Shown here one piece after another: positions 10,878 to 32,659 of a DNA stretch of 64,000 nt; position 1 is the stretch's first letter; every line of letters starts with the position of its first letter. Source of the stretch: Pseudooceanicola algae. Lineage in GTDB: Bacteria > Pseudomonadota > Alphaproteobacteria > Rhodobacterales > Rhodobacteraceae. The translations under genes and the position numbers were made by a program. The stretch is from positions 1 through 64,000 of the forward strand of contig NZ_CP060438.1 in assembly GCF_003590145.2 (NCBI RefSeq), written 5' to 3'. The notes beneath the pieces are model-generated. The model was not told the DNA's origin. It searched no databases and saw nothing but the letters and a program-made list of their open reading frames with translations.

Positions 10878-11672
10878 ATGTCACAGACCATCCGCCTGCC
10901 GGAGATCCTTGAAATCGCCCGCCGCGATGGCAAGGTCACGGTGGAACAGCTGGCCGACCATCTTGGCGTCACCCTGCAAACCATCCGTCGCGACCTGAGC
11001 GAGCTTGCCGAAGCGGGCAAGCTGGAGCGGGTGCATGGCGGCGCCGTCCTGCCCTCGGGCACCATCAACATCGCCTACGAGGAACGCCGCCAGCTGAATG
11101 CGGAGGGCAAGACCGCCATGGCCCGCGCCTGTGCCGCCATGATCCCCGAAGACTGCGCGATCTTCCTCAACCTCGGCACCAGCACCGAAGCCGTCGCGAC
11201 CGAGCTGCTGCATCACCGCAACCTGCTGGTGGTGACCAACAACATGAACGTCGCCAATATCCTGACCCGCAATCCCGATTGCGAGGTCATCGTCACGGGC
11301 GGCTCCCTGCGGCAATCGGACGGCGGGCTGATCGGGGACATCACCACCGCGGCGATCCGCAAGTTCAAGTTCGACATCGGGATCATCGGCTGTTCGGCCA
11401 TCGATCAGGACGGCGATATCCTCGACTTCGACCTGCGCGAGGTCGGCGTCAGCCAGACCATCCTGCACCAGTCCCGCCGCGCCATGCTGATCGCGGATCA
11501 GACCAAGTTCAAACGCACGGCCCCGGCCCGGATCGGGTCCCTGTCGGACATCGACGTGCTGTTCACCGACGCGCCCCTGACCCGCGGCCTGCAAGACCGC
11601 TGCGCGGATTGGGCGACCCAGATAGACGTCAGCCCCGCCGACCTTCCCCGCAGGGAAGGTTCCGCCGGTTAG
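10878..11672 (+). CDS. glpR: DeoR-family transcriptional repressor of the glycerol operon
   Basis: A 264-residue DeoR-type regulator. An N-terminal winged helix (residues 1-57, with 'VTVEQLADHLGVTLQTIRRDLSELAEAGKLERVHGGAV') is followed by a sugar-phosphate-sensing domain containing the family's GGSLR and GCSAID-type motifs. The ATG at 10878 has GGGAAGG upstream. Divergence from glpD strongly suggests it is the glp repressor. The final codons (DLPRREG) are written in a parS-like palindrome, and its stop overlaps the convergent replication gene by four bases. Confidence 0.88.
   Translation: MSQTIRLPEILEIARRDGKVTVEQLADHLGVTLQTIRRDLSELAEAGKLERVHGGAVLPSGTINIAYEERRQLNAEGKTAMARACAAMIPEDCAIFLNLGTSTEAVATELLHHRNLLVVTNNMNVANILTRNPDCEVIVTGGSLRQSDGGLIGDITTAAIRKFKFDIGIIGCSAIDQDGDILDFDLREVGVSQTILHQSRRAMLIADQTKFKRTAPARIGSLSDIDVLFTDAPLTRGLQDRCADWATQIDVSPADLPRREGSAG
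11641..11660. promoter_or_regulatory. parS-like palindrome, copy 1
   Basis: ACCTTCCC-CGCA-GGGAAGGT: 8-bp perfect arms around a 4-bp centre, inside the last codons of glpR. It belongs to a set of five similar palindromes clustered around parAB and is the most divergent copy. Confidence 0.6.
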
Positions 11673-12340
11673 CAGATGATCTCGACCCCTTGCAGCGCGG
11701 GATCGACCCGGCGCAGGGCTGCCGTCAGCACCTGCTTGCAATGGGTCGCGATATAGCTTTGCTGAAACGACGACCCGGCCGCCAGGACGACCTTGCCGCC
11801 CGAGATCTCGACCTCTGTCAGCCCCGACAACCAGGCCCCGTATAGCCCCGGCTGTTCGGCGGCCAGCAGCGCCTGGGCCCCGGCCCAGACCCCCTGCCCC
11901 TTGGGCGCCGAGACGGGCCGCATCGGCACGACGTTGGTTTCTGCGACACCCTCGGCCGGGCCGAGACGGGCCACGAAATCTTCGCCGACCAGCCCCCAGG
12001 CGGGGCGCGTGTCCTCCAGGATCTGCACAAGGTCCAGCCCATATGTGCTGATCCGCCCCCGCGCACCACGGGTCTTCTGCACCAGCCAGCCGAGGGCGCG
12101 CAGCCGCGCCATCTCGCGCTTGACGGTGCGTTCATCGACCGACCACATCCGCGCGATCTCGCGCTGTCCGACGCAAAGCTCGTCGCGTTGCCAGTTGTAC
12201 CGGGCCGTGATCAGCGAGATCAGCCGCAGCACCCGTCGCTGCGTCCCCGGATCCGCGCCCAGCCCATGCACGCTGAGCGCCGAGAGCAGGTCGTACTTGC
12301 GCGACGCTGCTTCCTTGCCCACCGGTTTGACGATCTGCAT
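11669..12340 (-). CDS. DnaA-like plasmid replication initiator
   Basis: A 223-residue protein (from ATG 12340 with AGGA upstream; the frame extends to 12409 without a convincing ribosome site). Residues about 55-90 form a winged-helix-like segment ('VGQREIARMWSVDERTVKREMARL'). The C-terminal 75 residues, including 'LYGAWLSGLTEVEISGGKVVLAAG' and 'SYIATHCKQVL' (segments shown in part), resemble the N-terminal interaction domain of DnaA. This combination is the hallmark of the DnaA-like replicases that define one class of Rhodobacterales plasmids. The AAA+ ATPase part of DnaA is absent. It is divergent from parAB across an iteron-bearing gap, the usual arrangement. Confidence 0.82.
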   Translation of the reverse strand: MQIVKPVGKEAASRKYDLLSALSVHGLGADPGTQRRVLRLISLITARYNWQRDELCVGQREIARMWSVDERTVKREMARLRALGWLVQKTRGARGRISTYGLDLVQILEDTRPAWGLVGEDFVARLGPAEGVAETNVVPMRPVSAPKGQGVWAGAQALLAAEQPGLYGAWLSGLTEVEISGGKVVLAAGSSFQQSYIATHCKQVLTAALRRVDPALQGVEIIC

Positions 12341-12838: not shown

Positions 12839-14134
12839 ATGTATGATCATACCGACCTGGCCCGGCTCCAGTCCCAATCCCTGAAGATGCAGGGATGGAT
12901 CCGCCAGCAGACCTTCAGCCCCGAACACACCAAGCGGCTGCGACGTTTCTCTTCGTGGGAGGTGTCAGAGCTGATCCTGAAGCTGAACCAATCCACCTTT
13001 CGCGGCAAGCTGGCCGCCGACCCCAGCCTGCCCGGCGGCGAGGTGGAAGAGGACGGGCGGCAGCGCTGGTTCTCTCTTGAAGAGATCAACGAGCTGCGCC
13101 GCCGGATCAAGACCAACCGCAAAAGCCTGATGCCCCCGCGCCCGGCGGGCAAGCGCGCCTTCCGCGCGGCGGTCGCCAACTTCAAGGGCGGCGCGGGCAA
13201 GTCGACCGTCGCCCTGCACCTGGCCCATGCCGCCGCGCTGGACGGCTACCGCGTGCTGCTGGTCGATTTCGACCCGCAGGCGACCCTGTCCCATTCCATG
13301 GGCCTCACCGATGTCTCCGAGGATTTCACCGTCTGGGGCATCATGGCCCGTGACCTGATCCGCGAAACCGACCGGATGAACGCGGCCACCACGGGTGCCG
13401 CCAGCGGCACCGCCCTGCCCCTGCGCAAGCTGCCCTCGGCAATCCGCGACATGGGTCTGGACGAATTGCGCCATGCGGATTTCATCCAGAAGACCAGCTG
13501 GTCCACGATCGACATCGTGCCCTCCTGCGCCAATGCGGCCTTCGTTGAATTCGCCAGCGCCCAGTACCGGCACCTGAACCCGGAATGGACCTTCTTTGCC
13601 GCCGTGTCGCGCTATCTCGACGGGATCGCGGATGACGATTACGACCTGATCCTGTTCGATTGCCCGCCCGCGATTGGTTACCAGTCGATGAACGCGGTGT
13701 TCGCCGCGGACATGCTTTATATACCCTCCGGCCCCGGATACTGGGAATATGACAGCACGACCTCCTTCATCGGCCAGCTTTCCGAAGCACTGGAAGACCT
13801 GGCCGCCGGGTTCGAGGGAACCTTCCCCACGGGGAAGATCACCCTGCCCAAGGCCTTCGTCGACGTGCGCTTCCTGATGACGCGTTACGAGGCTGGCAAC
13901 GATCTGCACCGCGCCATGCTCGAGGCGTTCCGCAAGGTCTTTGGCGACCACGTCACTGAACACCCGGTCGAGATGACGCGCGCGGTCGAACAATCCGGGC
14001 GCTTCCTGAGCTCGGTCTACGAGATCGATTACCGCAACATGACCCGCGAAACCTGGCGCCGTGCGCGTGCCAGTTTCGATCGGGCGTACGAAGAATTCCG
14101 CGGCAATGTCATTGCCGGCTGGGACAAGATCTGA
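12839..14134 (+). CDS. parA: Partition ATPase ParA (with N-terminal DNA-binding region)
   Basis: A 431-residue ParA of the type Ia class. The N-terminal 100 residues form a MerR/HTH-like region ('SLEEINELRRRI') thought to bind the par operator. The ATPase domain has the deviant Walker A KGGAGKST (116-123), switch I DFDPQ (143-147) and a later 'LILFDCPPAIGYQS' motif. It moves and spaces plasmid copies on the nucleoid together with ParB. ATG 12839 is preceded by TTGAGG; an in-frame TTG at 12827 would add four residues. A parS-like palindrome lies inside the gene (13822-13837), where it encodes FPTGK. Confidence 0.92.
   Translation: MYDHTDLARLQSQSLKMQGWIRQQTFSPEHTKRLRRFSSWEVSELILKLNQSTFRGKLAADPSLPGGEVEEDGRQRWFSLEEINELRRRIKTNRKSLMPPRPAGKRAFRAAVANFKGGAGKSTVALHLAHAAALDGYRVLLVDFDPQATLSHSMGLTDVSEDFTVWGIMARDLIRETDRMNAATTGAASGTALPLRKLPSAIRDMGLDELRHADFIQKTSWSTIDIVPSCANAAFVEFASAQYRHLNPEWTFFAAVSRYLDGIADDDYDLILFDCPPAIGYQSMNAVFAADMLYIPSGPGYWEYDSTTSFIGQLSEALEDLAAGFEGTFPTGKITLPKAFVDVRFLMTRYEAGNDLHRAMLEAFRKVFGDHVTEHPVEMTRAVEQSGRFLSSVYEIDYRNMTRETWRRARASFDRAYEEFRGNVIAGWDKI
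13822..13837. promoter_or_regulatory. parS-like palindrome, copy 3 (inside parA)
   Basis: CTTCCCCACGGGGAAG, identical to copy 2, embedded in the parA coding sequence. Confidence 0.7.
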
Positions 14135-14145
14135 GGAGGCTGAAG

Positions 14146-15354
14146 ATGGTCAAGAAAAAGCGCCGCATCTTTGATATCGAGATGCCCGAAGACGCGCCCG
14201 AAATCGCACCGGATACCGCCACGCCGCAGGACAGCGCGGCGACCCCCGACAGCAGCGCCGCGCAGCCCGACGCAGAATCCTTCCCCGCGGGGAAGGGTGA
14301 CAGCGGGCCGTCCGCGCCGCAACCGGGCCGCCCCGGCGGCGCCCGACGCCGGGGTCCCATGGCCACGGCCATCGGAGAGACGGCGATTTCCGCGCGCGAA
14401 CGTCAGGAAACCGAGGCCCGCATCCGGGCCGAGAACGACACCCTGGCCCATGAACACATGCGTCTCAAACGGCTGGGCCTCGTGCTGGACCAGATCCCGT
14501 TGCAGGCTATCGACACGACCAAGCTGGTGCGCGACCGCAAGCCGGGTCTTGATCCCGAACTCGAGGATCTGAAGGCCTCGATCACCTCGATCGGGTTGTC
14601 GAACCCGATCCGGGTCGAAGAAGCCGGGCAGGGGCGCTACGAGCTGATCCAGGGCTTCCGCAGGCTGACCGCCTACAAGGCCCTGCTGGAAGAGACCGGC
14701 GATGCCGGGGCCTGGGGAACGATCCCCGCCGCCGTTGCACCGCAGGGCGACGGGATCGAGACGCTCTATCGCCGGATGGTGGATGAAAACCTGGTGCGCA
14801 AGGACATCTCCTTCTACGAGATGGCGCAACTGGCGCTGGACTACGCCGCCGACCCGGCGACGCAGGAAAGCGATCCGGATAAGGCCGTGGCGCTGCTGTT
14901 CAAGTCGGCCCGCTACCAGAAGCGCAGCTATATCCGTAGCTTCATCAAGGTGGTGCAGCGGCTGTCAGGCGTACTGTCCTACCCCGAGGAACTGCCGCGC
15001 GCCCTAGGCCTGGCGCTGGCCCGCAAGGTCGAGGATGACGACGGCACGCTGGCCGCGATCGCCGAGGATCTGAAGGATTGGGACAACCGCAGCGTCACGG
15101 ATGAGATCGGCGTGATCCGCCGCCAGCTTGGCCTGACCGAAGGGGCCGAGGCCGATCCGGCCCCGCGCAGCCCGGCCCGGCGGGCCTCGGGCGGCAAGGC
15201 CAAGACCAGTTTCCAGCTGGAGCGCCGCGAAGGGCGGGCCAAATGCACCGCCGCCGATGGTCGGCTGGAGATCCGCTTGCCGCGCGATTTCACGACCATC
15301 GACCGTCGCCGCCTGGAAGAGGCCGTGCGCCGGATGCTGGATCAACTTGAATGA
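14146..15354 (+). CDS. parB: Partition protein ParB
   Basis: A 402-residue ParB-family DNA-binding protein, 11 bases after parA with a strong GAGGAGG ribosome site. Residues 1-100 are a polar, proline-rich linker. The ParB/Srx domain begins near 115 and includes the nucleotide-binding segment 'YELIQGFRRLTAYKAL' (GFRR, 170-173, in place of the more common GERR). A helical KorB-type DNA-binding region follows (about 195-290), then a C-terminal dimerisation part. It should bind the parS palindromes described here and spread on DNA. One perfect palindrome lies within its own coding sequence at residues 46-50 (FPAGK). Confidence 0.9.
   Translation: MVKKKRRIFDIEMPEDAPEIAPDTATPQDSAATPDSSAAQPDAESFPAGKGDSGPSAPQPGRPGGARRRGPMATAIGETAISARERQETEARIRAENDTLAHEHMRLKRLGLVLDQIPLQAIDTTKLVRDRKPGLDPELEDLKASITSIGLSNPIRVEEAGQGRYELIQGFRRLTAYKALLEETGDAGAWGTIPAAVAPQGDGIETLYRRMVDENLVRKDISFYEMAQLALDYAADPATQESDPDKAVALLFKSARYQKRSYIRSFIKVVQRLSGVLSYPEELPRALGLALARKVEDDDGTLAAIAEDLKDWDNRSVTDEIGVIRRQLGLTEGAEADPAPRSPARRASGGKAKTSFQLERREGRAKCTAADGRLEIRLPRDFTTIDRRRLEEAVRRMLDQLE
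14279..14296. promoter_or_regulatory. parS-like palindrome, copy 4 (inside parB)
   Basis: CCTTCCCCGCGGGGAAGG, an 18-bp perfect palindrome with no mismatches, in the linker-encoding part of parB. It is the most symmetric copy. Confidence 0.75.
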
Positions 15355-15355
15355 T

Positions 15356-15371
15356 CTTCCCCGCGGGGAAG
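15356..15371. promoter_or_regulatory. parS-like palindrome, copy 5
   Basis: CTTCCCCGCGGGGAAG, perfect 16-bp palindrome one base after the parB stop codon. Confidence 0.72.
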
Positions 15372-15396
15372 GTGGCGAAGCAAGGGAAACGCGGGG

Positions 15397-15419
15397 CGGG
15401 GCAGGGATGTCCTGCCCCG
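15397..15419. terminator. Hairpin between parB and the recombinase gene
   Basis: Perfect 9-bp stem CGGGGCAGG/CCTGCCCCG with a GATGT loop, followed on the plus strand by TTTGCCGTTT. It lies in the gap between convergent parB and the integrase and probably ends the parAB transcript. Confidence 0.6.
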
Positions 15420-15432
15420 TTTGCCGTTTCGC

Positions 15433-16521
15433 CTACAGCCCGGCGGCCTTCGTCAGGTTGACGCGGAACCGGTCGCGGCGGCGCTGATAGCGGCGGGTCA
15501 TCTCGGCGCTGGCATGGCCAAGCTGCTTCTGGACATAGCGTTCATCGACCTCGGCGCTGCTGGCCAGACCGGCGCGCAATGAGTGACCCGAATACAGCCG
15601 CGCGCGTTCCTCGTCGGGCAGGTCGGGGCGCAGCCCGGCGTCCAGCACCGTGCGCTTGACCAGGCGGGCGACATGCTTGTCGTTCAGCCGGGCCTCCAGC
15701 ACCCGCTTGCCATCGCGCGAGGTGCGCCGGAACAGCGGGCCGAAATCGATGCGGGCGAAGTGCAGCCATTGCTCCACCGCATGGACCGGGCAGGTCCGAG
15801 GGCCGGAGCCACGCCCGACTTCGACCTCGCGCCAGCCGGTCTTGCCGCGCAGGGTGATCAGCAGGCCGCCCTCGAGGATCTGGATCCAGCCGCCGCTGTC
15901 GGGGGTGTCGTCCTTGCCGTGATCGAGGCAGGTGATCTCGGACCGCCGCAACCCGCCGGCATAGCCCAGAAGCAGGATGGCCCGGTCGCGAAGCCCGCGC
16001 AGGTCATGGGGCAGGGTGGCGACCATGGCGCGGATGTCCTCGGGCAGGATCGCCTCTTTCTGGACCGGGGGGCGGGCGTGCTTGCGCCTGATCCCCGCCA
16101 GCACCGCCGAGATATGCCGGTCGCTTCGGTCAAGAGACAGGCCCCGCTGCCGGTAACCCCAGCAGAGACCGGACAGCCGCCGCTCGATCGAAGCGACGGA
16201 CAGCGCCGGGCTGCCATCGGAAGGCGCGGCCAGGTCGGTGATGTAGAGCCCGATCATCTGCGGTGCGGGGGGCAGCGGGTCGGTGCCCTTCAACCGGCAC
16301 CAGCGGGCGAAATGACGCCAGTCCGCCCCGTAGGCCGCCAAGGTCCGATCAGAGGCGGCCGCCTGGGCATAGCCCTGCGCGGTCTCGACCAACCGGTCCA
16401 CCGTGCCGGACCCTGCGATATGAGAGGGCAGGGGGTCAGGGGTGCCCGTCGCGGGACCCGAGGCCTGATCGTCCCCGACCAGACCGGGCCGGGGCGGCGG
16501 ATCCGAAGGTGTATTCGTCAT
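15433..16521 (-). CDS. Tyrosine recombinase/integrase, probably for plasmid dimer resolution
   Basis: A 362-residue site-specific recombinase. An N-terminal SAM-like core-binding domain (about 45-150) precedes the catalytic domain with the full set of residues: Arg in GGLRRSE (192 or 193), Lys 227 in RGKTGW, His313 and Arg316 in SGHSLRAG, His336 in QLGHAS and the nucleophile Tyr345 in TRRYQ. It sits next to parB in a plasmid maintenance module and no phage genes are near, so resolving plasmid multimers is more likely than prophage integration. A candidate crossover site lies just upstream of its start. Confidence 0.85.
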   Translation of the reverse strand: MTNTPSDPPPRPGLVGDDQASGPATGTPDPLPSHIAGSGTVDRLVETAQGYAQAAASDRTLAAYGADWRHFARWCRLKGTDPLPPAPQMIGLYITDLAAPSDGSPALSVASIERRLSGLCWGYRQRGLSLDRSDRHISAVLAGIRRKHARPPVQKEAILPEDIRAMVATLPHDLRGLRDRAILLLGYAGGLRRSEITCLDHGKDDTPDSGGWIQILEGGLLITLRGKTGWREVEVGRGSGPRTCPVHAVEQWLHFARIDFGPLFRRTSRDGKRVLEARLNDKHVARLVKRTVLDAGLRPDLPDEERARLYSGHSLRAGLASSAEVDERYVQKQLGHASAEMTRRYQRRRDRFRVNLTKAAGL

Positions 16522-22174: not shown

Positions 22175-22204
22175 GCAGGCCCCCGGCGGTTACCGGGGGC
22201 CTGC
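22175..22204. terminator. Bidirectional terminator hairpin
   Basis: A perfect 12-bp stem (GCAGGCCCCCGG/CCGGGGGCCTGC, 6-base loop) between convergent tctA-like and hyuB genes. The hyuB stop codon lies in the hairpin. Confidence 0.65.
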
Positions 22205-23794
22205 TGGCCGGGCCTGTTCCGGCGCGCGGGCCTCTGGCGGCGTGCCATAGCCGGCCCCGCCCGAACTTTCGATGATCAGCACATCGCCCTTGTTCAGCGT
22301 GATGGCCGAGCGCGCGGTCAGTTCCATTCTGGCACCATCGGCGCGGATCACGGTTGCGGCCGATCCCCTGGGCGACCCGCCGCCATGGGCGCCTTTGGCG
22401 ACGCGGGCAAACCGTTCGCCCCGGATCGAGGCGGCAATCCCGTCGGTCAGCGCCTCGTAGGTCCGGATCACCCCGTCGCCGCCGCGAAAACGTCCCGGAC
22501 CGCCGGATCCGGCCCGGCATCCGGCGGACAGCAGGCGCATGGGGACCAGCGATTCCAGCGATTCAGCCGAGATGTTCATGGCGTTGCCCACATCCGTCGA
22601 AATCCCCGGCGCGCCATCTGCATGGGGCGCGCCTCCGGCGCCGCCCGCGACGATCTCGGTCGACAGGAAGGGTATCCCCTGGGCGTCCTTGCCTGAAAAG
22701 GCGATGACATAGGACATGCCGGAATTGGCGGCCGGCATGCGGTCGGGATCGGCTTCGGCCAGAGCCTGCAGGACGGCCGAGGTAATGCAGCGCACCATGT
22801 TCATCCGCGCATTGACGGCGGCGGGCAGGGCGGCGTTGACGATGCTCTCCTCCGGCAGATCCAGCGTGATCCGCCGCAGGATGCCGCCGTTGCGCAGCGC
22901 GCTATCGCCCATGAGCGTCAGCAATCCGTAGAACACCGCCGACAGGGGCCCCGAACGCACGCAATTGACCGGCGCCTGCACCTGCGGTGAGGAGCCGTGG
23001 AAATCCGCAACCATGTGGCCGTCGCGGATCGCGATGGCAACATGGGCTTCGCAGGGGCCGAGATGTGCGACCGGGTCCAGCGCATCCATGCCGTGAAAGG
23101 GACCCGTGGGCAGGGCCTCCAGGCGGGCGGCAGTTTCCGCCTCGGCCCGGTCCAGCAGGGCGTCGAGCGCCTGAAGGAACGGCGCGGTGCCAAGATCCTG
23201 CGCAATCCGCCGCAGGCCATGGGCGGCACTGCGCCCGGCGGCCAGTTGGGTTTCCAGATCGCCCAGCACCACATCCGGCGCGCGCGAGGCAAAGCGGATC
23301 AGGTTGGCAAAATCCCGGCCGAAGCCATCCGTCTGCCCGGCCCGCATCGGCGGCAGGCGCAGGCCCTCGTGATAGATCTCGGTCGCATCGGGCGGCACGG
23401 ATCCCGCGCGGGTGCCGCCGATGTCCTGATGGTGCAGCAGGCTGGCGGTCAGCGCGATCAGCATGTCGCCTGCAAAGACCGGCTGGACCACCGCGATATC
23501 GGGCAGGTGAGTACCGCCGGAAAACGGGTCGTTGGTGACAAAGACATCGCCGGGCTGCATCTGCTCTGCGGGGTATTCCCGCAGGATCGCGCCCACGGCC
23601 CCGGGCAGCGCGCCAAGCAGCAGCGGGATCGCCTCGGCCAGGGCCAGCAGTTCGCCCTTTGGCGTGAACAGCGCGCAGGAGGCATCCGCGCCTTCGCGCA
23701 CCACGGGCGACACCGCGACGCGCAACAGGGTCTGCTGCATGCCCTCGGCCAGACCATCTAGGCGCAGTTGCAGGATGGAGAGGTCATCGTTCAT
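22190..23794 (-). CDS. hyuB: Hydantoinase/oxoprolinase subunit B (HyuB family)
   Basis: A 534-residue member of the hydantoinase B/oxoprolinase family. The segment 'GDVFVTNDPFSGGTHLPDI' and the C-terminal 'GGAGYGTPPEARA' are characteristic. With HyuA it should hydrolyse a cyclic amide such as a hydantoin, N-methylhydantoin or 5-oxoproline at the expense of ATP. The start at ATG 23794 forms an ATGA overlap with the hyuA stop. The exact ring substrate is unknown. Confidence 0.88.
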   Translation of the reverse strand: MNDDLSILQLRLDGLAEGMQQTLLRVAVSPVVREGADASCALFTPKGELLALAEAIPLLLGALPGAVGAILREYPAEQMQPGDVFVTNDPFSGGTHLPDIAVVQPVFAGDMLIALTASLLHHQDIGGTRAGSVPPDATEIYHEGLRLPPMRAGQTDGFGRDFANLIRFASRAPDVVLGDLETQLAAGRSAAHGLRRIAQDLGTAPFLQALDALLDRAEAETAARLEALPTGPFHGMDALDPVAHLGPCEAHVAIAIRDGHMVADFHGSSPQVQAPVNCVRSGPLSAVFYGLLTLMGDSALRNGGILRRITLDLPEESIVNAALPAAVNARMNMVRCITSAVLQALAEADPDRMPAANSGMSYVIAFSGKDAQGIPFLSTEIVAGGAGGAPHADGAPGISTDVGNAMNISAESLESLVPMRLLSAGCRAGSGGPGRFRGGDGVIRTYEALTDGIAASIRGERFARVAKGAHGGGSPRGSAATVIRADGARMELTARSAITLNKGDVLIIESSGGAGYGTPPEARAPEQARPAGPR

Positions 23795-25545
23795 GGCAGG
23801 CTCCGTTCCAGGATACAGGCGGTCTCGCTGCCGGTCAGGTGCCAGCCCTCGGGGCACCAGATCGCGCCCGCTTCGGTGGCGATCAACCCGGTGGTCGCCG
23901 TCGGCGACAGGGGCGCCATCGGTGGCACCGGCCCGAAGGTATCGCGCCGGACGGAGATCGAGAACAGATACCCCGGTCCCGGCGGCGCAATGCCGTATTC
24001 GGCGCGGAAGGCCGCCGCGAAAGCCTCTGCGATGCTCTGCCCGGAGGTGGGGCGGATGGTCAGCCGCAGGGGCATCGGGTGCATCTGCCGCCGGGCGGCC
24101 AGCATGAGGTCATAGGTCAGGTCTTCGCCGCTGCCCAGATCAGCCTCCAGTCCGTCCAGAAGCGGGTCGAGGGCCTCTGCCGGCAGGTCGTTCAGCGGTT
24201 GGTCGACGCGGGTCAGGACTTCCTTGCGGCGGGCAGCCTGCATCAGCCCGATTGCGCCGGAGGCGCCGGGCGCCCGCGGCAGAAGCACGCGGTCCAGACC
24301 CATGGACGCCGCGATATCCGCCGCCAGCAACGCCCCGGTGCCGCCCATGACGGCAAGGGCCGCGCGCCCGGGATCCATGTTGCGCCGCGTGGCGTAGCGG
24401 GTCAGGGCATGGGCCATCCGGTCGGCGGCGGCGGCCACCACGGCCTCGGGGGGGAAAGGTGCGGTCCAGGGGGTCGTCGCGGGCAACCGGCCAAGGGCGG
24501 CAAGCGCGTCGTCGAGGCGGGGGGCCTGCGGGGCCGTGGTGACAAAGGTCAGGCCCTCGGGCGTTTCCGCAACCCGCCGGGCGCCGCCAAGGGCAATGCT
24601 TTCGATATCGGTGCAAGCCTCGCGCAGGGGCACACCAGCCAGCAGGCCTGTCTCGGACAGACGGGGATCTCCGGCACGGGCAGTGGACAGATCGGCGCTG
24701 AGCGATCCGATATCCGCCGCGATCAGCGGGGCCTGGTCCGACAGCGCCGCGCCTGCACGGGCGGCGGCAGCGGGCGCACCGGCCAGCAGCACGGCGCGGT
24801 GCCGGGCCGCCGCTTGATCCGGCACCAGCACGCCGCGCCCGTCCCCGAACAGCAGTTCGCCGGCAAAGCCGCGTGCCTGAAGGGCGGCGCGCAGATCCCG
24901 CAGGGCAGCATCCATATGGGCGGCCAGCCAGGCGTCGGTCAGGGTCGAAACACTGCGCTCATATTCGCGGGGGCCGGGGTCGACCTGATGCGAAAGGCTG
25001 ACGCTGAGGTCGGGCAGGGCTTCGGTCAGCGCTTTGGCAAGCTGCACTTCCTGCGCGGGGTTCACATGGGCGAACAGCAGGCAGATCGCGACGGACCGGA
25101 TGCCGCGCGCGCGCAGGCTGGACAGCGCGGTCGCGATATCATCCGGATCAAGCGGGATCAGTTCCTGCCCTGCCGCATCGAGGCGCCCGCCGATTTCATG
25201 CACGTCCTGCGGATCGACCAGGAAGGTCGGCGCGGGGGATCGCGCGACGGGATCGTAAAGCGCGGCGCGGTTCTGTCGACCCAGCCGCAGGGTATCGCCG
25301 AAACCGCGTGTCGTCAGCAGCGCCACGGGCTCGGGCCTGCGCGCCAGCAGCGCGTTGAGCGGTGCGGTGGTGACAAGGCGCAGCTCGGCAAGGCGGGCCG
25401 GATCAAGCTCCATGGCTGCCAGTCCATCCATCAGGTCCCCGACCAGTTCCCCGGTCACGGGGCGCTTGAGGATCCGCAGCGCGGTATCATCCCAGGCTAC
25501 GAGATCGGCGAAAGTGGCGCCGAGATCCACGGCAAGGCGGGTCAT
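23791..25545 (-). CDS. hyuA: Hydantoinase/oxoprolinase subunit A (HyuA family, ATPase)
   Basis: A 584-residue protein with an ASKHA-type phosphate loop at the N-terminus ('LAVDLGATFADLVAWD') and 'IAADIGSLSADLS' further on. The family usually shows DxGGTxTD; here Gly-Thr are replaced (DLGATFAD and DIGSLSAD), a departure worth noting. It is shorter than the 680-700 residues typical of HyuA. ATG 25545 overlaps the stop of the upstream lyase-like gene (ATGA). It is the likely ATP-dependent partner of HyuB. Confidence 0.82.
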   Translation of the reverse strand: MTRLAVDLGATFADLVAWDDTALRILKRPVTGELVGDLMDGLAAMELDPARLAELRLVTTAPLNALLARRPEPVALLTTRGFGDTLRLGRQNRAALYDPVARSPAPTFLVDPQDVHEIGGRLDAAGQELIPLDPDDIATALSSLRARGIRSVAICLLFAHVNPAQEVQLAKALTEALPDLSVSLSHQVDPGPREYERSVSTLTDAWLAAHMDAALRDLRAALQARGFAGELLFGDGRGVLVPDQAAARHRAVLLAGAPAAAARAGAALSDQAPLIAADIGSLSADLSTARAGDPRLSETGLLAGVPLREACTDIESIALGGARRVAETPEGLTFVTTAPQAPRLDDALAALGRLPATTPWTAPFPPEAVVAAAADRMAHALTRYATRRNMDPGRAALAVMGGTGALLAADIAASMGLDRVLLPRAPGASGAIGLMQAARRKEVLTRVDQPLNDLPAEALDPLLDGLEADLGSGEDLTYDLMLAARRQMHPMPLRLTIRPTSGQSIAEAFAAAFRAEYGIAPPGPGYLFSISVRRDTFGPVPPMAPLSPTATTGLIATEAGAIWCPEGWHLTGSETACILERSLP

Positions 25546-26114
25546 GCGCGGGTGTCCGTGCAATCCATGGCGTCGGGCCAGAGGATGGCCCAGGGGGCGG
25601 CCAGCGGGCGGAATTCGGTGTCGCGGGCGGCATCGCCGGTCTTCCACATCAGCGAGGCAAAGCAGGCGGCCCGGTCGAGCGCCACGATCCCGTGATGCCA
25701 GACGCCGGGCGCATAGGTCACCACGTCCTGCGGCCCGGCGACAAAGGCCAGCGGCGCGCCTTCGGGGCCATCGGGCCAGACGGCAACCAGCCAGCGGGCG
25801 GCGGTCATCGGGCTGAACATCTGCGCGGAATGCAGGTGCCGTTCGACGGTTCCCGCGATCAGGGGACCCTTTTCCTGCGCAACCTCGTAGAAGTCCAGTT
25901 TCGCCTCTGCCGCCTCGGGGAGATGGGCAAAGCCGGTGTCGCTTTTGCTGAGGCGGACATGACCGTCGCGGATCATCCTGACCGCGCCTAGGCCGGGGCG
26001 GGCGACATGACCGAAGGGGGCAAAGGACCCGGGCGTCAGGGGGCGGGCCCTGATCTGCCGGTCGGACGGGATCGGATCGGCTGGACCGGGGGCGGGTGCG
26101 CTGGTCTGGGTCAT
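25542..26114 (-). CDS. Ureidoglycolate lyase-like protein (AllA family)
   Basis: A 190-residue cupin-fold protein. The AllA signature residues are visible in 'ERHLHSAQMFSPM' (91-103) and 'PGVWHHGIVALD' (136-147). AllA releases urea from ureidoglycolate, the last step of purine/allantoin breakdown. It heads the minus-strand unit AllA-HyuA-HyuB, all joined by 4-nt overlaps, so the protein should act in the same pathway as the ATP-dependent ring-opening enzyme. A related ureido-acid may be the true substrate. Confidence 0.8.
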   Translation of the reverse strand: MTQTSAPAPGPADPIPSDRQIRARPLTPGSFAPFGHVARPGLGAVRMIRDGHVRLSKSDTGFAHLPEAAEAKLDFYEVAQEKGPLIAGTVERHLHSAQMFSPMTAARWLVAVWPDGPEGAPLAFVAGPQDVVTYAPGVWHHGIVALDRAACFASLMWKTGDAARDTEFRPLAAPWAILWPDAMDCTDTRA

Positions 26115-26164: not shown

Positions 26165-26614
26165 TCAGGTGGCGAGGCCGTCGATGATCGCGGTGACCCA
26201 GGGCAGGGCCACGTCTTCGGGCAGGTCCGCGCTGGCGGCGTCATGGACGGGGCGTTCATCCAGCGCACGGGCGCCCCGGGCGACCAGCAGTTCGGCCAGC
26301 TTCATCGAACCGAAGCCATAGGTCTCGGCATATTCGCTGTCGCCGAGGCCGAAGATGGCAAAGCGCACGTCCGAGAGGTCGGGCTGGCTGTCGGCGAGTT
26401 GCGCGGCAAAGGGCTTGGCCGAGGCCGGAAGCTCGCCCTCTCCGTACGAGGAACAGACGATGACGTTCAGCTCGGCGACCTTCAGGTCCTCGGGGCTGCT
26501 GTCGGCGAGATCGGCAAGAGAGGTCTCATGCTCGGCTTCAAGCCCGGTGGCGATATCCTCGGCCAGCATCTCGGCGTTGCCGGTTTCGGTTCCGAAAAAG
26601 ATGGCGATCTTCAT
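26165..26614 (-). CDS. Flavodoxin
   Basis: A 149-residue single-domain flavodoxin. The FMN phosphate loop is 'FGTETGNAE' (7-15), and the ring-binding loops are 'SSYGEGELP' and 'FGLGDSEYAETYGFG'. It carries low-potential electrons in the cytoplasm. It starts four bases after the stop of the reductase gene, so the two form a reductase-carrier pair. It is divergent from a Rieske oxygenase, for which it may be the electron carrier. Confidence 0.87.
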   Translation of the reverse strand: MKIAIFFGTETGNAEMLAEDIATGLEAEHETSLADLADSSPEDLKVAELNVIVCSSYGEGELPASAKPFAAQLADSQPDLSDVRFAIFGLGDSEYAETYGFGSMKLAELLVARGARALDERPVHDAASADLPEDVALPWVTAIIDGLAT

Positions 26615-26618
26615 GGGG

Positions 26619-27806
26619 TCAGGCGTCCTCATGGGTTGCGGGATTAAGCAGCTCTTCCCGGCAGGTGATTTTCTGGCGGCAACGGTTGCCCGGCGCGGAG
26701 GAAAGCTCCAGCGCGTCGAGGCGTTGCCAGTGGTCAAAGTCGACGATGCTTTTGTGGGCGGCGAAGATCGCGCGCCCCGGTTTGGTGACATCGGGGGTGA
26801 TGCGATCAAGGATTTCCACGGCCAGGGCCTGTGCTTCGTCCCGGCATTGGGGGATAGCCCCGACCGACCCGGTGCGGAACCAGCCCGCAGTGTAAAGGTT
26901 TCCGGGGGGCGCTGCATCCGCCTCTTGCAAGAGAGCGGCGCGATCAAGCGCCCCGTCGCAGACAAAGCCGATGGCCGAAATCACCGAACTGGCGCTGATC
27001 TGTTCGGGACCTGCCGGGGTTTCGACCGTCAGGCGCAAGGCCCCGTCGACCTGTTCCAGGGCAACCGGGCGGCTTTCAAAGCGGAAGTCGACCGGCAGCG
27101 GGCCGGAGGTGGCCGCAACGGCCGTGTTCAGCGCCTCTGCATCATCAGGAAACCGCAGGCGCAGGTCCACGCGCGACAGCTCGGCCAATTCCTTGATCAT
27201 CACGGGCGAAAACCGCGCAGCCGAGGCGCGGGACCGGCCCACGACGGTGATCTGCCGGATCTCCTGCGCCGCAAGCCAGTCCGTGGGGGCGGGGCCAAGG
27301 TCGCTGCCGTGCAATTCGTCCGGTGTCTTCGCGAGCAGGCGCAGCACGTCGATGGCCACATTGCCCGTGCCGATGATGACGGGATGGGCGCCAAGCGAGG
27401 GTAGCGCGGCGGCGTCGGGGTGTTCATACAGGGCGCGGGTCAGCGCGCCGGAGCCGATGACGCCGGGCAGGCCGTCGCCCGGAATGCCCAGAGCCCGGTC
27501 CCCCGCCAGCCCTGTCGCCAGAACCACCACGTCATAAGCACGGCGCAGATCGGGCAGGGTGATGTGGTGGCCAAGGCGCAGGTTGCCGTGAAACCGGGCA
27601 TTCTGACGGGTGAAAAGCCGGGCGAATTGGCGTGCGACGCCCTTGGTGCCCTGATGATCGGCTGCGACACCGTAGCGGACCAGACCGTAGGGCACCGGCT
27701 GGGCATCGATGATGTCGATCTCAAGATCGGGGGCACGTTTCAGCAGGGCCTGCGCGGTGTAGCAGCCCGAAGGCCCGGCGCCGACAATTGCAATTTTGGC
27801 ACCCAT
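26619..27806 (-). CDS. NADPH-ferredoxin/adrenodoxin reductase-type flavoprotein
   Basis: A 395-residue FAD/NADPH oxidoreductase of the adrenodoxin reductase/FprA class. The FAD motif GAGPSG is at 9-14, 'PYGLVRYGVAADH' is the family hallmark, the NADPH motif is 'GTGNVAIDVLRLL' and the C-terminus has the second FAD contact 'AGWFRTGSVGAIPQCRDEA'. It transfers electrons from NADPH to a ferredoxin or flavodoxin. It is the first gene of a two-gene unit with the flavodoxin and is divergent from the Rieske genes. Confidence 0.87.
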   Translation of the reverse strand: MGAKIAIVGAGPSGCYTAQALLKRAPDLEIDIIDAQPVPYGLVRYGVAADHQGTKGVARQFARLFTRQNARFHGNLRLGHHITLPDLRRAYDVVVLATGLAGDRALGIPGDGLPGVIGSGALTRALYEHPDAAALPSLGAHPVIIGTGNVAIDVLRLLAKTPDELHGSDLGPAPTDWLAAQEIRQITVVGRSRASAARFSPVMIKELAELSRVDLRLRFPDDAEALNTAVAATSGPLPVDFRFESRPVALEQVDGALRLTVETPAGPEQISASSVISAIGFVCDGALDRAALLQEADAAPPGNLYTAGWFRTGSVGAIPQCRDEAQALAVEILDRITPDVTKPGRAIFAAHKSIVDFDHWQRLDALELSSAPGNRCRQKITCREELLNPATHEDA

Positions 27807-28050: not shown

Positions 28051-28449
28051 ATGAGCCAATCGCCCCAAGCCGAGACCCCGACCACGGACTGGGTCAGGAT
28101 CGCCCCCGCCGAGGCCCTCCAGGGGCCGCGCCCTGTCGCGCCGGTGACTGCCTTTGGTCAGAACCTGGTGCTGTTTCGCGATGAAGAAGGCGAGTTGGGG
28201 CTGATCGGGCGCTACTGTCCGCACCGGGGCGCCGACCTGTGCTATGGTCGCCATGAGAACAACGGCATCCGCTGTCCCTTCCACGGCTGGCATTTCAACC
28301 GCGCGGGCCAATGCACCGAACAACCGGCGGAGCCGGAGGATTCCACCATGTACAAGGCGATCAAGCTGCCCAGCTTTACGGTTGCCGAACATGAGGGAGA
28401 GATCCTGGCCTGGGCCGGCGAAGGCCCTCCGCCCCCCATCGCCGGCTAA
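28051..28449 (+). CDS. Stand-alone Rieske [2Fe-2S] protein of an oxygenase
   Basis: A 132-residue protein made only of a Rieske domain. Cluster ligands are Cys56, His58, Cys75 and His78 (C-P-H, 16 residues, C-P-F-H). The surrounding wording ('CPHRGADLCYGR', 'NNGIRCPFHGWHFN', 'CTEQPAEPEDS') is that of the N-terminal domain of phthalate-dioxygenase-type oxygenase alpha chains, not of a biphenyl-type ferredoxin. There is no signal peptide. ATG 28051 has AAAGGA at good spacing. Next comes the catalytic chain that lacks this motif, so the two proteins probably form one oxygenase. Confidence 0.85.
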   Translation: MSQSPQAETPTTDWVRIAPAEALQGPRPVAPVTAFGQNLVLFRDEEGELGLIGRYCPHRGADLCYGRHENNGIRCPFHGWHFNRAGQCTEQPAEPEDSTMYKAIKLPSFTVAEHEGEILAWAGEGPPPPIAG

Positions 28450-28494
28450 GCTGCTGTCCCCTGTTTCCAAGCGTTCCCCCGAAGGAGCAATCCC

Positions 28495-29724
28495 ATGATC
28501 ACCCAGAAACTGAACGACCAGATCACCCGGATCGGCCCGGATGCCCCCGCAGGCGCCGTGCATCGGCACTACTGGCAGCCCGCCGCCCTGACGGATGAGC
28601 TGACCGCCGGGGATCTTATGCTGCCGGTCAACCTGCTTGGCGAACGCCTGGTGATGATGCGCGACGAGGCGGGTGCCCTTATCCTGAGGGCGCGCGAAGC
28701 CAGCGCCGGCGAGGCGCCGTCCCACCACCCCGCGCGCGCAGAGCTGCGCGTGATCGAAGGCGGGCCGGTCTATCCGGTGGTCGAGAAGAACGGCATCTGC
28801 TTTGCCTACATGGGTCCGGGCGAACCGCCCGCCTTCCCCAATTTCGACTGCTTCCGGGCACCCGACAGCCATGTCTTTGCCTTCAAGGGCCTTTGGGAAT
28901 GCAACTGGTTGCAGGCGCTGGAGATCGGCATCGACCCCGGCCATGCCTCTTTCCTGCATCGCTTCCTGCAGGACGAGGACCCCGAGGACAGCTATGGCAA
29001 GCAGTTCCGCGACAAGGCCGCAAACACCGACATGCCGATGACACAGGTGCTGCGCGAATATCCCCGCCCGGATATCGAGGTGGACGAGACCGCCTTCGGC
29101 CTTAAAATCACCGCGCTGCGTCACATGGCCAACGACCTGACCCATGTGCGGGTGACCAATCAGATTTTCCCGTCGGCGATCTGCATCCCGATGTCGCGCG
29201 AGATGATCATCACCCAGTGGCATGTGCCGATCGATGACGAGAATTGCTATTGGTACACCATGTTCACCAGCTTCGACAAACCGGTGAACAAGGACCTGAT
29301 GCGCGCACAGCGCCTGAAGGAACACCGCCTGCCGGATTACGCGCCGCTGAAGAACCAGTCGAACCACTACCATTTCGACCCGGAAGAACAGAAATCCCTG
29401 ACCTATACGGGCATGGGCATGGACATCAACGTGCATGACCAATGGGCCGTTGAAAGCATGGGTGCCATCCAGGACCGGACCCGTGAACACCTGGGCCGGG
29501 GCGATGCAGCGATCATCCGCTACCGCCTGATGCTGCGCAAGGCGATCAAGGCGCTGGAAACCGGCAAGCCGGAGCGTCTGCCGATGCAGGACCGTCAGGA
29601 AACGCCCGCCATCGTGGGGCCGCTGTCCAATGATGCGATCGCGGACAGCGACGACTGGCTGGCCGCAAGCCTTGCCAGCGATATCGAGCGCCGCAAGGCC
29701 GCGCCCTGGAACGCCACGGTATGA
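28495..29724 (+). CDS. Rieske oxygenase catalytic chain lacking its Rieske cluster motif
   Basis: A 409-residue protein homologous to phthalate-dioxygenase-type alpha subunits. The mononuclear iron motif is intact: Glu143, Asp147, His150 and His155 in 'EIGIDPGHASFLH', after Asn137. The N-terminus keeps the family start 'RHYWQPAALTDEL' and the strand 'LLGERLVMMRDEAG'. The next 30 residues (61-90), where CxH and CxxH should be, contain no cysteine, and the family sequence resumes at 'YPVVEKNGICFAYMGPGEP'. The cluster is presumably supplied by the preceding Rieske protein. A GAAGGAG site precedes the ATG. The N-demethylase NdmC, which also lacks a Rieske motif, is a known parallel. Confidence 0.85.
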   Translation: MITQKLNDQITRIGPDAPAGAVHRHYWQPAALTDELTAGDLMLPVNLLGERLVMMRDEAGALILRAREASAGEAPSHHPARAELRVIEGGPVYPVVEKNGICFAYMGPGEPPAFPNFDCFRAPDSHVFAFKGLWECNWLQALEIGIDPGHASFLHRFLQDEDPEDSYGKQFRDKAANTDMPMTQVLREYPRPDIEVDETAFGLKITALRHMANDLTHVRVTNQIFPSAICIPMSREMIITQWHVPIDDENCYWYTMFTSFDKPVNKDLMRAQRLKEHRLPDYAPLKNQSNHYHFDPEEQKSLTYTGMGMDINVHDQWAVESMGAIQDRTREHLGRGDAAIIRYRLMLRKAIKALETGKPERLPMQDRQETPAIVGPLSNDAIADSDDWLAASLASDIERRKAAPWNATV

Positions 29725-30212
29725 TTCCCGCCGGGCCTGGACAGGATGCGGAACCCTTTCACGACATCCTGGACGGCTATTTCACGCTGAAGGAATCGGT
29801 GCGCCAGCTCATGGCGCGCCACCAGTTGTCCTGGGCCTGGCTGGTGCTGCGGCATGCCCCGGTGATGGAGATCGCCGGGCTCGCCCCCGACGCGCCTGTG
29901 CCCATGCATCTGCGTGACGGATACGCGGGCCTGATCGACACGATGGTCCTGACGGTCTCCCGCACGGGCGGCCCGGACAGCGACGAGTATCTATTGGTGG
30001 GGTCCGGCGACTGGCGTTGGCTGGATACCCGCGACGACAGCGCCCTGCCAGCCGACATCCGGCTGGCCGAGCCTGCTTACCTGACGGGTTTCGGCCTGTC
30101 GGCCGAGCCCAATTCCAAGCCCAATGCCAAGCGCACCGAGGCGGAAGAAGTCCTGAGCGAACTGCCGGGCTTGCTGGCCGAGGCCGCCGATTTCCGCCCC
30201 TTCTGCGCCTGA
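29721..30212 (+). CDS. Unknown protein coupled to the split Rieske oxygenase
   Basis: A 163-residue cytoplasmic protein starting in an ATGA overlap with the catalytic-chain gene, so it is probably translated in fixed ratio with it. I recognise no family. Visible features are a helical N-terminal segment (14-50, 'HDILDGYFTLKESVRQLMAR'), 'GSGDWRWLDTRDDS' near residue 93-106 and a polar C-terminus ending FRPFCA. It has no metal-cluster motif. It may be a small subunit or assembly partner of the oxygenase. Confidence 0.7.
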   Translation: MIPAGPGQDAEPFHDILDGYFTLKESVRQLMARHQLSWAWLVLRHAPVMEIAGLAPDAPVPMHLRDGYAGLIDTMVLTVSRTGGPDSDEYLLVGSGDWRWLDTRDDSALPADIRLAEPAYLTGFGLSAEPNSKPNAKRTEAEEVLSELPGLLAEAADFRPFCA

Positions 30213-30857: not shown

Positions 30858-31196
30858 TCAGTCAATCAAAGACTTCTTGTAGCATTCGGGGTTCATGTCC
30901 CGAATGTCGGTGCTGATGCCCCCGACCTGCGGACAAAGGACACGCAGCGCGCCGGTCATTGCCTGCGCCAGTCCCAGCTTGGCCGCGTCCGTGCGCCCCG
31001 TCAGCATCGAAATCGTCACATGCATGAAGGACTTGCGGCCATCGCCCAGCAGGATCGCCTCGGCCGGCAACAAGCGCACCTTGATGTCATCGCGGTTCAT
31101 CACGCCGCTGTCCGCCGCAGTATCGAGCGCGGTTTGCAGCAGGGCCTGCCTGTCCAGCGGGGTTTCGGTGAAATACTCGATCACGATATGGGGCAT
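30858..31196 (-). CDS. 5-carboxymethyl-2-hydroxymuconate isomerase-like tautomerase
   Basis: A 112-residue protein of the tautomerase superfamily, CHMI branch, with Pro2 after the initiator Met (MPHIVIEYF), which is the catalytic base in this superfamily. Known members isomerise keto-enol forms in aromatic acid breakdown. It starts two bases after the stop of a glutamine-synthetase-like gene and is the last gene of the TRAP unit, so its substrate is probably derived from the transported compound. Confidence 0.75.
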   Translation of the reverse strand: MPHIVIEYFTETPLDRQALLQTALDTAADSGVMNRDDIKVRLLPAEAILLGDGRKSFMHVTISMLTGRTDAAKLGLAQAMTGALRVLCPQVGGISTDIRDMNPECYKKSLID

Positions 31197-31198
31197 GG

Positions 31199-32659
31199 TC
31201 AGAAGATCCCGAAGTATTCAGTCTGTTCCCACTCGGTCACGATGCTGAGGTAGCGTTTCCATTCAGCCCGCTTGAGGAAGGACATGTAGTCGACGAAATC
31301 CTCGCCCAGCATCCGGCGATAAAGGTCGCCATCCTCGAAGGCCTCGATGGCGGCGATCAGGCTGGGGGGCAGGGCGGTGGCATCGTTGTCATAGGGGTTT
31401 TCCACCGGTGCGGGGGCGGTCAGCCCCTGTTCCAGCCCCGAGAGGCCCGACAGGATCTGCGAGGCGAAGTAGAAATAGGGGTTGGCGGCGGGTTCGGCCA
31501 CGCGGTTCTCGACCCGGCTGGCCCCGTCGCCCGGCGCCATCAGGGCGCGCACCATGGCGCCCCGGTTGTCATAGCCCCATTCGATGCGGTCGGGGGCCAG
31601 TTGATAGGGCTGATAGCGTTTGTACCCGTTCACCGTCGGCGTGGTCAGCAGGCAGCTTTCCCGCGCGTGGGCCAGCAGCCCGGCGATCCAGGCGCTGGCT
31701 TCGGGTGTCGGTTCGCCGGCGGTTTCGGGGATGAAGACATTGCGCCCTGTGTCATCGACCAGCGATTGATGCAGGTGCCAGCCGCTGGAGGCGCTGTTGT
31801 CCTTCTTGGGGCGGCACATGAAGGTGGCGTGCAGGCCTTCGCGGGCGCAGACCTCTTTCACCATGGTGCGGAACATCACCATGTTGTCGGCGTGTTCCAG
31901 TGCCGAGGCGGGATCGAAGGTGAATTCGAACTGGCTCGGGCCCATCTCGACCTCGGTCGAGCGGACGGGCAGGCCAAGGGCCTGTGCATTGCGGCGCAGC
32001 AGGTCCATGACGGGTTCCAGACGGTCGTAGTTCGCCTCGGCCAGGTATTGATAGCCCTGGTCCAGCAGGGCGGTCGTCGGCGATTGCCCCGGCATCCCGG
32101 CCTGGTGATGGGCCAGGGGCTCTTCGAGGCGCTTGTAAACGTGGAATTCGACCTCCAGCCCGACGGTCAGCGACAGGCCCTTTTTCGCCAGTGCCGCCAC
32201 GGCGCGGCGCAACAGGGGACGCGGCGCGAAGGGCAGGGATTGTCCGTCGCGGGTATAGGGGTCGCAGAACAGCCAGGCGGAATGGGGCGACCAGGGCAGG
32301 ATGCGGAACGTATCGGGATCGGGCACCAGCAGCATGTCCCCGGCACCGGCCATGGATTTCAGCACGCCGGAGGACGCCCCGTCCCAGATCGGAAAGACCG
32401 TGCGGTTCGACGTATCCTTCAACAGAAGCGTACCCGGCAGGTTCAGCCCGGCGCGGAAGATCGACGCGAGGCTGTCGGCGGTCACGGTCTTGCCGCGCAA
32501 CAGCCCGTGCTGATCCGCGAAGACCACCCGCACGGTTTCCAGGTCACTGCCCTCGATCCGTTCCAGCAGGTCGGCGGCGGCGGCCACGGCGCTGGCGCTC
32601 AGCAACTGCTCACGGGCCAGGCGGCCCTCGGCGATCCGGTCGTGATGTGAAGAGGTCAT
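31199..32659 (-). CDS. Glutamine synthetase family protein (gamma-glutamyl ligase type)
   Basis: A 486-residue protein of the GS catalytic superfamily. Metal-binding and ATP motifs are visible: 'GLEVEFHVYKR', 'EVEMGPSQFEFTF', 'SSGWHLHQSL' and 'NGYKRYQPYQLAPDRIEWGYDNR' (shown only as landmarks, the last in the NxxKR region). It lacks the adenylylation tyrosine context of GlnA and resembles the catabolic glutamylating enzymes such as PuuA. Its place between a TRAP transporter and a tautomerase argues for glutamylation of an imported amine or acid rather than for nitrogen assimilation. Confidence 0.8.
   Translation of the reverse strand: MTSSHHDRIAEGRLAREQLLSASAVAAAADLLERIEGSDLETVRVVFADQHGLLRGKTVTADSLASIFRAGLNLPGTLLLKDTSNRTVFPIWDGASSGVLKSMAGAGDMLLVPDPDTFRILPWSPHSAWLFCDPYTRDGQSLPFAPRPLLRRAVAALAKKGLSLTVGLEVEFHVYKRLEEPLAHHQAGMPGQSPTTALLDQGYQYLAEANYDRLEPVMDLLRRNAQALGLPVRSTEVEMGPSQFEFTFDPASALEHADNMVMFRTMVKEVCAREGLHATFMCRPKKDNSASSGWHLHQSLVDDTGRNVFIPETAGEPTPEASAWIAGLLAHARESCLLTTPTVNGYKRYQPYQLAPDRIEWGYDNRGAMVRALMAPGDGASRVENRVAEPAANPYFYFASQILSGLSGLEQGLTAPAPVENPYDNDATALPPSLIAAIEAFEDGDLYRRMLGEDFVDYMSFLKRAEWKRYLSIVTEWEQTEYFGIF

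Follow-up and report, generated by a model that had tools for sequence, protein, structure and literature searches.

Rieske oxygenases pass electrons from the cluster of one subunit to the catalytic iron of the next subunit, over a distance of about 12 Å. MpCAO1 and MpCAO2 of Micromonas are reportedly two long degenerate copies, each of which lacks one metal site. The chlorophyllide a oxygenase (CAO) of Micromonas consists of two polypeptides (PMC9615114), and in the demethylases NdmA and NdmB electrons cross between subunits, from a cluster to the neighbouring iron about 12 Å away (PMC10380055). In the 7-methylxanthine N7-demethylase NdmCDE of Pseudomonas putida CBB5 the Rieske domain has been separated from the catalytic chain and joined to a reductase, which was described as the first such case on record, and NdmE is postulated to align the Rieske domain of NdmD with NdmC (PMC4408171). 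Our search of open-licence PMC papers for oxygenases with a separate donor Rieske protein retrieved, among the papers listed, the Ndm and CAO systems and no description of the system reported here.

We analysed a stretch of 64,000 nucleotides from Pseudooceanicola algae (called the window), which lies on a 111-kb contig of a 4.09-Mb genome. A ParA-like AAA gene and a phage-type integrase gene at 12839-16521 of the window suggest that this contig is a plasmid or chromid. The locus of interest comprises a small stand-alone Rieske protein, the catalytic chain of a Rieske oxygenase and a third gene, orf3 (Table 1). The original prediction had described the first two as a donor Rieske protein paired with a degenerate alpha chain: the catalytic chain was said to keep the iron-site motif E-x3-D-x2-H-x4-H and the flanking strands of the Rieske domain with no cysteine in between, the preceding gene to encode a complete Rieske domain with all four ligands, and both chains to carry the RDE-G strand. 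All four features were recovered. The residues E143, D147, H150 and H155 form the motif and are invariant, the scaffold is retained around a 28-residue loop which in the window contains zero cysteines, the small protein matches PF00355 with its CPH...CPFH block intact, and the RDE-G strand is present in both chains. The Pfam search gave no PF00355 match in the catalytic chain, and the two proteins together hold all metal ligands. The closest solved chain to the catalytic chain by sequence is 9ina (E 3.1e-42), named isophthalate dioxygenase in the Foldseek listing; its nearest solved chains are phthalate-type dioxygenases, and the cluster region breaks all three printed alignments. Of the features expected of a LigXa/phthalate-dioxygenase alpha subunit, the catalytic domain and iron site are thus present and the cluster ligands in the same chain are absent.

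Table 1. Positions of the split oxygenase, its parts and its neighbours in the window.
Feature	Position	Strand	Evidence or remark
Flavodoxin, 149 aa from internal ATG, candidate electron carrier	26165..26614	-	PF00258, 91.2 bits
FAD oxidoreductase, candidate electron donor	26619..27806	-	PF07992
Small stand-alone Rieske protein, 132 aa	28051..28449	+	PF00355, 74 bits; longest frame, from 27952, 165 aa
Cluster-binding tip, ligands C56, H58, C75, H78	about 28189-28335	+	CPH...CPFH intact
Catalytic chain, LigXa/phthalate-dioxygenase-type Rieske oxygenase without cluster ligands, 409 aa	28495..29724	+	PF19301 (LigXa_C), 97.9 bits
Retained Rieske scaffold, residues 1-64, cluster subdomain absent	28495..28686	+	aligns with N-terminus of 9ina, 7fjl, 7fhr
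Replacement loop, residues 65-92	28687..28770	+	28 residues versus 57 in fused relatives
Mononuclear iron site E143-x3-D147-x2-H150-x4-H155	28921..28959	+	invariant in 27/27 split, 73/73 fused
orf3, 163 aa, proposed assembly/docking subunit	29721..30212	+	ATGA overlap with catalytic gene
Glutamine-synthetase-family ligase	31199..32659	-	PF00120, 272.9 bits

The catalytic chain was used to search 394 genomes of the same family. A close relative was found in 46 of them, end to end in 10 (window included) and in 36 as two blocks that flank the cluster region; the ligand motif was present in all 11 fetched of these 36 genomes. Among the scored matches of the 10 genomes with a split chain there was no close fused copy. 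Eighty loci (19 motif-less, 61 with motif), two plasmid records and 20 further stretches made up the 102 entries examined, of which 29 lack the motif (split) and 73 carry it in the oxygenase chain (fused). The check attached to the original prediction, whether motif-less homologues always sit beside a stand-alone Rieske gene, came out positive in 29/29 entries (26 after three duplicates were dropped): each has such a gene at most 66 nt upstream together with orf3 and a glutamine-synthetase-family gene. Without the duplicates (L035, L041, L042) and with the window, the number of distinct split loci is 27; G496 and G547 are further split loci outside this set, and G440 was not counted apart from L056. 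The split loci include Pseudooceanicola marinus, Thalassovita gelatinovora, Pararhodobacter, Alloyangia pacifica, Roseobacter sp. GAI101, a Palleronia plasmid and one MAG labelled Granulosicoccaceae. The full split unit of this MAG is borne on a short contig (L067), by transfer or mis-binning, and on the Palleronia plasmid (L031) the small Rieske gene, at 11593-11985, falls into a gap of the PLSDB gene table with its frame intact. In 15/27 loci the small Rieske gene and the catalytic gene share a four-base stop/start overlap.

Relatives with 53-67% identity to the catalytic chain are ordinary one-chain oxygenases with all four cluster ligands, and they occur in Rhodobacterales and in other Pseudomonadota, e.g. 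in Nitratireductor sp. OM-1, Mameliella and Sulfitobacter. Other frames with the ligand pattern were found in 12/73 fused entries, none of which abuts the oxygenase upstream on its strand. Additional oxygenase frames near split loci were considered as fused family copies and rejected: one at L088 is 33-35% identical to fused members, and two at L061 (4852-7324), just upstream of the small Rieske gene, have a Rieske pattern of their own and are about 22-27% identical to the split and fused family.

Compared with the fused relatives, the window shows a net deletion of 29 residues. The loop that takes the place of the cluster region has 28 residues in 25/27 split loci and 26 in 2/27, versus 57 in 73/73 fused relatives, and the mean pairwise identity over the loop columns is 42.0% in the split versus 80.6% in the fused chains. 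A lone cysteine occurs in the loop of 2/27 split homologues and the ligand set in none; the ligand columns are empty or replaced across the 27 rows, save one lone cysteine in one row. One split locus (L039) retains RHCP at the position of the first cluster cysteine of the fused relatives, and from its alignment this is likely a remnant of the lost cluster site. The original prediction had named as an alternative that close homologues carry the motif in one polypeptide and that this locus differs from them by a local deletion or a sequencing error. The first part stands, since such homologues exist and the deletion is real; the second does not, because the deletion is common to the whole clade and always accompanied by the partner gene. 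A deletion, decay or sequencing error at a single locus, which the mere existence of fused relatives at this level of identity might invite, has a negligible probability: the loss is shared by 27 distinct loci, each with an upstream small Rieske gene and orf3, and the same loop length recurs in 25 of them across many genera and assemblies. Comparison of the window with five relatives for the small Rieske protein, the catalytic chain and orf3 gave dN/dS values of 0.07-0.33 in 15/15 comparisons, which indicates purifying selection on all three genes. Error and decay were rejected on the shared loop state and on these values.

Beyond the loop, the catalytic chain is conserved as in the fused enzymes. 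The mean pairwise identity of residues 113-350 is 82.8% among the split chains versus 80.9% among the fused ones. D147, which we take by analogy to be the bridging aspartate, belongs to the invariant motif, and D315, invariant in 27/27 split and 73/73 fused chains, is by its conservation a candidate for the third iron ligand. A reading in which the catalytic chain has ceased to be an oxygenase and the Rieske protein serves something else might draw on the absence of a cluster in the chain itself and on the two other oxygenase-like frames at L061; it is very improbable, given that the iron ligands and the putative bridging aspartate are invariant in 27/27 loci, that residues 113-350 are as constrained as in the fused enzymes, that the small Rieske and catalytic genes are adjacent in 27/27 loci and that the frames at L061 are distant from the family and have their own Rieske pattern. 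The base of the Rieske domain behaves differently, with a mean pairwise identity in residues 27-64 of 61.7% in the split versus 78.1% in the fused chains.

The small protein shows the complementary picture. It consists of a Rieske domain alone (132-165 aa) with no fused reductase, and its ligand block is intact in 27/27 loci. The tip has a mean pairwise identity of 89.5% among the 27 small Rieske proteins versus 86.8% among the 73 fused enzymes, whereas the base parts reach 54.1% (N-terminal) and 53.5% versus 77.5% and 69.0% in the fused enzymes. The constraint on the two proteins is complementary: the small protein keeps the tip, which the catalytic chain has lost, and the base is relaxed in both. 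In a converse search of 390 genomes, 58 had a match to the small Rieske protein at E 1e-15. The six close small Rieske proteins in frames shorter than 200 aa (E ≤1.3e-47) each lie beside a split chain; a seventh short-frame Rieske protein (G607) is 38% identical (E 1.1e-17).

We built trees of both parts, each of which included 40 of the 73 fused sequences. The tree of the catalytic part left out the cluster region; it came from a quick search with no bootstrap, and its outgroup branches reach 10 changes per column. All 27 split rows group there in a single clade (SH-aLRT 99) among the fused rows. In the Rieske-domain tree, which contained no ferredoxins and comprises 109 columns, with many open forks, a long-branch warning and an unsettled bootstrap, all 27 small Rieske proteins share a single clade (100/99) within the fused family, apart from 17 other oxygenases. 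The nesting of both clades inside the fused family depends on a root that is set by long outgroup branches. One fused row (L068) joins the small Rieske proteins with unreliable support (96/0); in the catalytic tree, too, it is placed close to the split clade. A relative of the ligase lies near the oxygenase in 29/29 split and 69/73 fused entries. The split lineage apparently arose a single time, from a one-chain ancestor with a fused oxygenase next to a glutamine-synthetase-like ligase. The simplest history would be that the Rieske domain of the enzyme was duplicated once and that complementary decay followed. The survey of loci, the trees and the regional constraint thus support the predicted pairing of a degenerate alpha chain with a donor Rieske protein as far as sequence comparison can; they go beyond it in that the donor seems to be a duplicate of the oxygenase's own Rieske domain and that the pair never occurs without a third gene.

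The most probable reading, which we hold with good confidence, is that of a Rieske oxygenase with its two metal centres on different polypeptides, in which the small Rieske protein docks by the catalytic iron and orf3 aids assembly; here, we infer the docking, the role of orf3 and the substrate. The catalytic chains would still build the usual trimer, and the small Rieske protein would be made in amounts coupled to those of the catalytic chain. It may be reduced by a reductase or carrier, for which the flavodoxin and the FAD reductase are candidates in the window's subclade. The near-unchanged tip of the small protein would then dock near the iron on the same face of the catalytic domain, about where the cluster of the neighbouring subunit would sit, and would hand the electrons on for O2 activation at the catalytic iron. 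In this scheme orf3 would help to hold the small Rieske protein at the catalytic chain, the role proposed for NdmE. Since the small protein and the catalytic chain each have a base of their own, the former cannot simply refill the hole in the latter. A joint model, in which both proteins were read as one chain, was poor (mean pLDDT 67.8), with residues 54-107, the cluster region, below 50; residues 161-260 (chain residues 13-112) reached block means of 75-95 and form six strands, and Foldseek with this model returned isophthalate and phthalate dioxygenases first. The model shows no docking, and because of its quality the attempt to derive a docking geometry was dropped and we make no claim on it.

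The small Rieske protein might instead be a free shuttle like a Rieske ferredoxin, which contacts the catalytic chain briefly and is not a subunit. Its separate gene, its own base and the base kept by the catalytic chain would fit such a role. We consider it unlikely because the tip is on average 85.4% identical to that of the fused enzymes and because the protein groups with oxygenase domains, both in the tree (which lacked ferredoxins) and among solved chains, where oxygenases match best (7fhr, 3.8e-28) and ferredoxins far more weakly (8jng, 1.6e-7; 2qpz, 4.8e-4). The coupled genes and the constant third gene also speak against a shuttle and suggest a fixed stoichiometry.

orf3 was found in 29/29 motif-less entries and in 0/73 fused ones. 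In the 394 family genomes its profile matched 10, the same 10 that have the split oxygenase, and the remaining 384 have neither; among 385 genomes of the class it matched its own genome and one other weakly (7.9e-4), and among 398 genomes of the phylum there was no match beyond the window's own genome. The unit therefore consists of three genes rather than two. Kinship of orf3 to a known family by sequence was pursued and dropped, as solved chains, profile and Pfam gave no convincing match: the window's protein has no Pfam family match, 26 homologues gave just two families with one member each (E 0.26 and 0.33), and among solved chains the window's sequence had no match up to E 1 and the profile a single one (E 0.14). 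The structural model of orf3 is of good quality (pLDDT 86.4, pTM 0.82), and the best four Foldseek matches are PPC-type (E 4e-4 to 6e-4, probability 1.00) but with TM scores of 0.38-0.44 and rmsd values of 7-12; acetolactate decarboxylases follow lower. PF03479 (PPC/DUF296) was not among the Pfam matches of 26 orf3 members up to E 1 and was absent from 30 relatives. With a TM score of about 0.38, the predicted PPC-like fold is a weak match and a lead only.

Based on co-occurrence, we infer for orf3 a dedicated role as a subunit that serves assembly or docking. It could also be a pathway enzyme or binding protein outside the oxygenase that was merely acquired at the same time, a reading that we regard as possible though disfavoured. 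The order of genes is in part compatible with it, as orf3 comes after the ligase gene in 17/27 loci (small Rieske, catalytic gene, ligase, orf3), but in the other 10/27 (the window's subclade, L065 and L066) the ligase is found at another place, the three genes of the unit are direct neighbours and orf3 directly follows the oxygenase. The nearest folds, PPC proteins and the decarboxylases, and the faster evolution of orf3, whose dN/dS of 0.18-0.31 exceeds that of the other two genes in most comparisons, would suit a pathway protein; yet orf3 tracks the split state across the 394 genomes, and a ligase of the same kind lies near the oxygenase in fused relatives, which have no orf3. Taking orf3 as a subunit, one may go further and propose a three-chain class of Rieske oxygenases, with a removable tip protein that carries the cluster, a trimeric catalytic chain whose hollow scaffold serves as the socket and an orf3 subunit that joins both. 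We offer this proposal tentatively, its prospects being close to but short of even.

The surroundings of the unit look like a catabolic cluster. The divergent pair of FAD reductase and flavodoxin genes lies just upstream in 6/8 loci of the window's subclade; within the stretches fetched, it occurs in 6/27 split loci (window included) and in 0/73 fused ones. A pair that is about 56% identical was observed in Pseudosulfitobacter sp. DSM 107133 (L033, 5975-7632), where the stretch fetched contains no split oxygenase; the pair is therefore not confined to split loci. Next to the split unit, at 22190-26114 of the window, lie hydantoinase/oxoprolinase-type genes (HyuA/HyuB-like) and a ureidoglycolate-lyase-like cupin gene, and HyuA/HyuB relatives lie near the split unit in G208 too. 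A tautomerase-like protein of the CHMI family is encoded at 30858-31196 between orf3 and the ligase; such a tautomerase occupies this position in most of the window's subclade and is found near some fused loci. We also considered homarine as a putative substrate link for the split oxygenase. In the degradation of aniline and 1-naphthylamine, gamma-glutamylation precedes the Rieske dioxygenase (PMC11335346). The ligase neighbour recalls these routes, which makes an amine or other nitrogen-containing compound a reasonable guess: by this analogy, the substrate is probably of this kind and handled together with the glutamine-synthetase-like ligase.

In one-chain Rieske oxygenases the cluster and the iron centre are inseparable, and here evolution seems to have parted them. 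The cluster, the docking face and the catalytic chain could each be titrated, swapped or mutated independently, with fused relatives of up to about 67% identity as natural controls, which would make the split enzyme a natural case for the study of electron passage between the subunits of such enzymes. It also provides a clear example of domain-level subfunctionalisation, and orf3, which belongs to no named family, may be a new oxygenase subunit. If the three-chain reading is true, then this system and NdmCDE would be independent cases of a severed Rieske oxygenase that took up a third protein, unrelated in the two, and so restored electron transfer from subunit to subunit.

As in NdmC, NdmD and NdmE, the catalytic chain lacks a Rieske cluster, the cluster would come from another polypeptide and a third, presumably non-catalytic protein would align the two (PMC4408171, PMC10380055). 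However, the Rieske domain of the Ndm system is fused to the reductase NdmD, whereas here it stands alone and closely resembles the domain of the fused relatives; the Ndm helper is GST-like, whereas orf3 has no Pfam family and no GST was among the 50 fold matches listed for it. Moreover, unlike NdmC, the catalytic chain keeps the base of the Rieske domain. The parallel with NdmC drawn in the original prediction holds for how the split oxygenase may work and not for its ancestry. The fused relatives and 9ina share the catalytic domain and iron site, and the former the ligase neighbour (69/73), but the fused relatives are single chains with four cluster ligands and without orf3 (0/73). The pairing of a glutamine-synthetase-like ligase with a Rieske oxygenase is also known from the aniline and 1-naphthylamine dioxygenase systems (AtdA, NpaA), which are two-component oxygenases of another type (AtdA3A4, NpaA3A4) (PMC11335346). 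With Micromonas CAO, the present system shares the distribution of one Rieske oxygenase over two chains, and the trees and regional constraint agree with a pattern of complementary loss such as CAO reportedly shows. CAO is an algal chlorophyll enzyme, whereas here the donor is cut down to the Rieske domain alone, a third gene is present and the cluster looks catabolic. The split oxygenase would belong to neither NdmCDE nor Micromonas CAO; it would work like the first and resembles the second, and it appears to have arisen separately: its donor stands alone, its catalytic chain is hollow and its third protein is another one.
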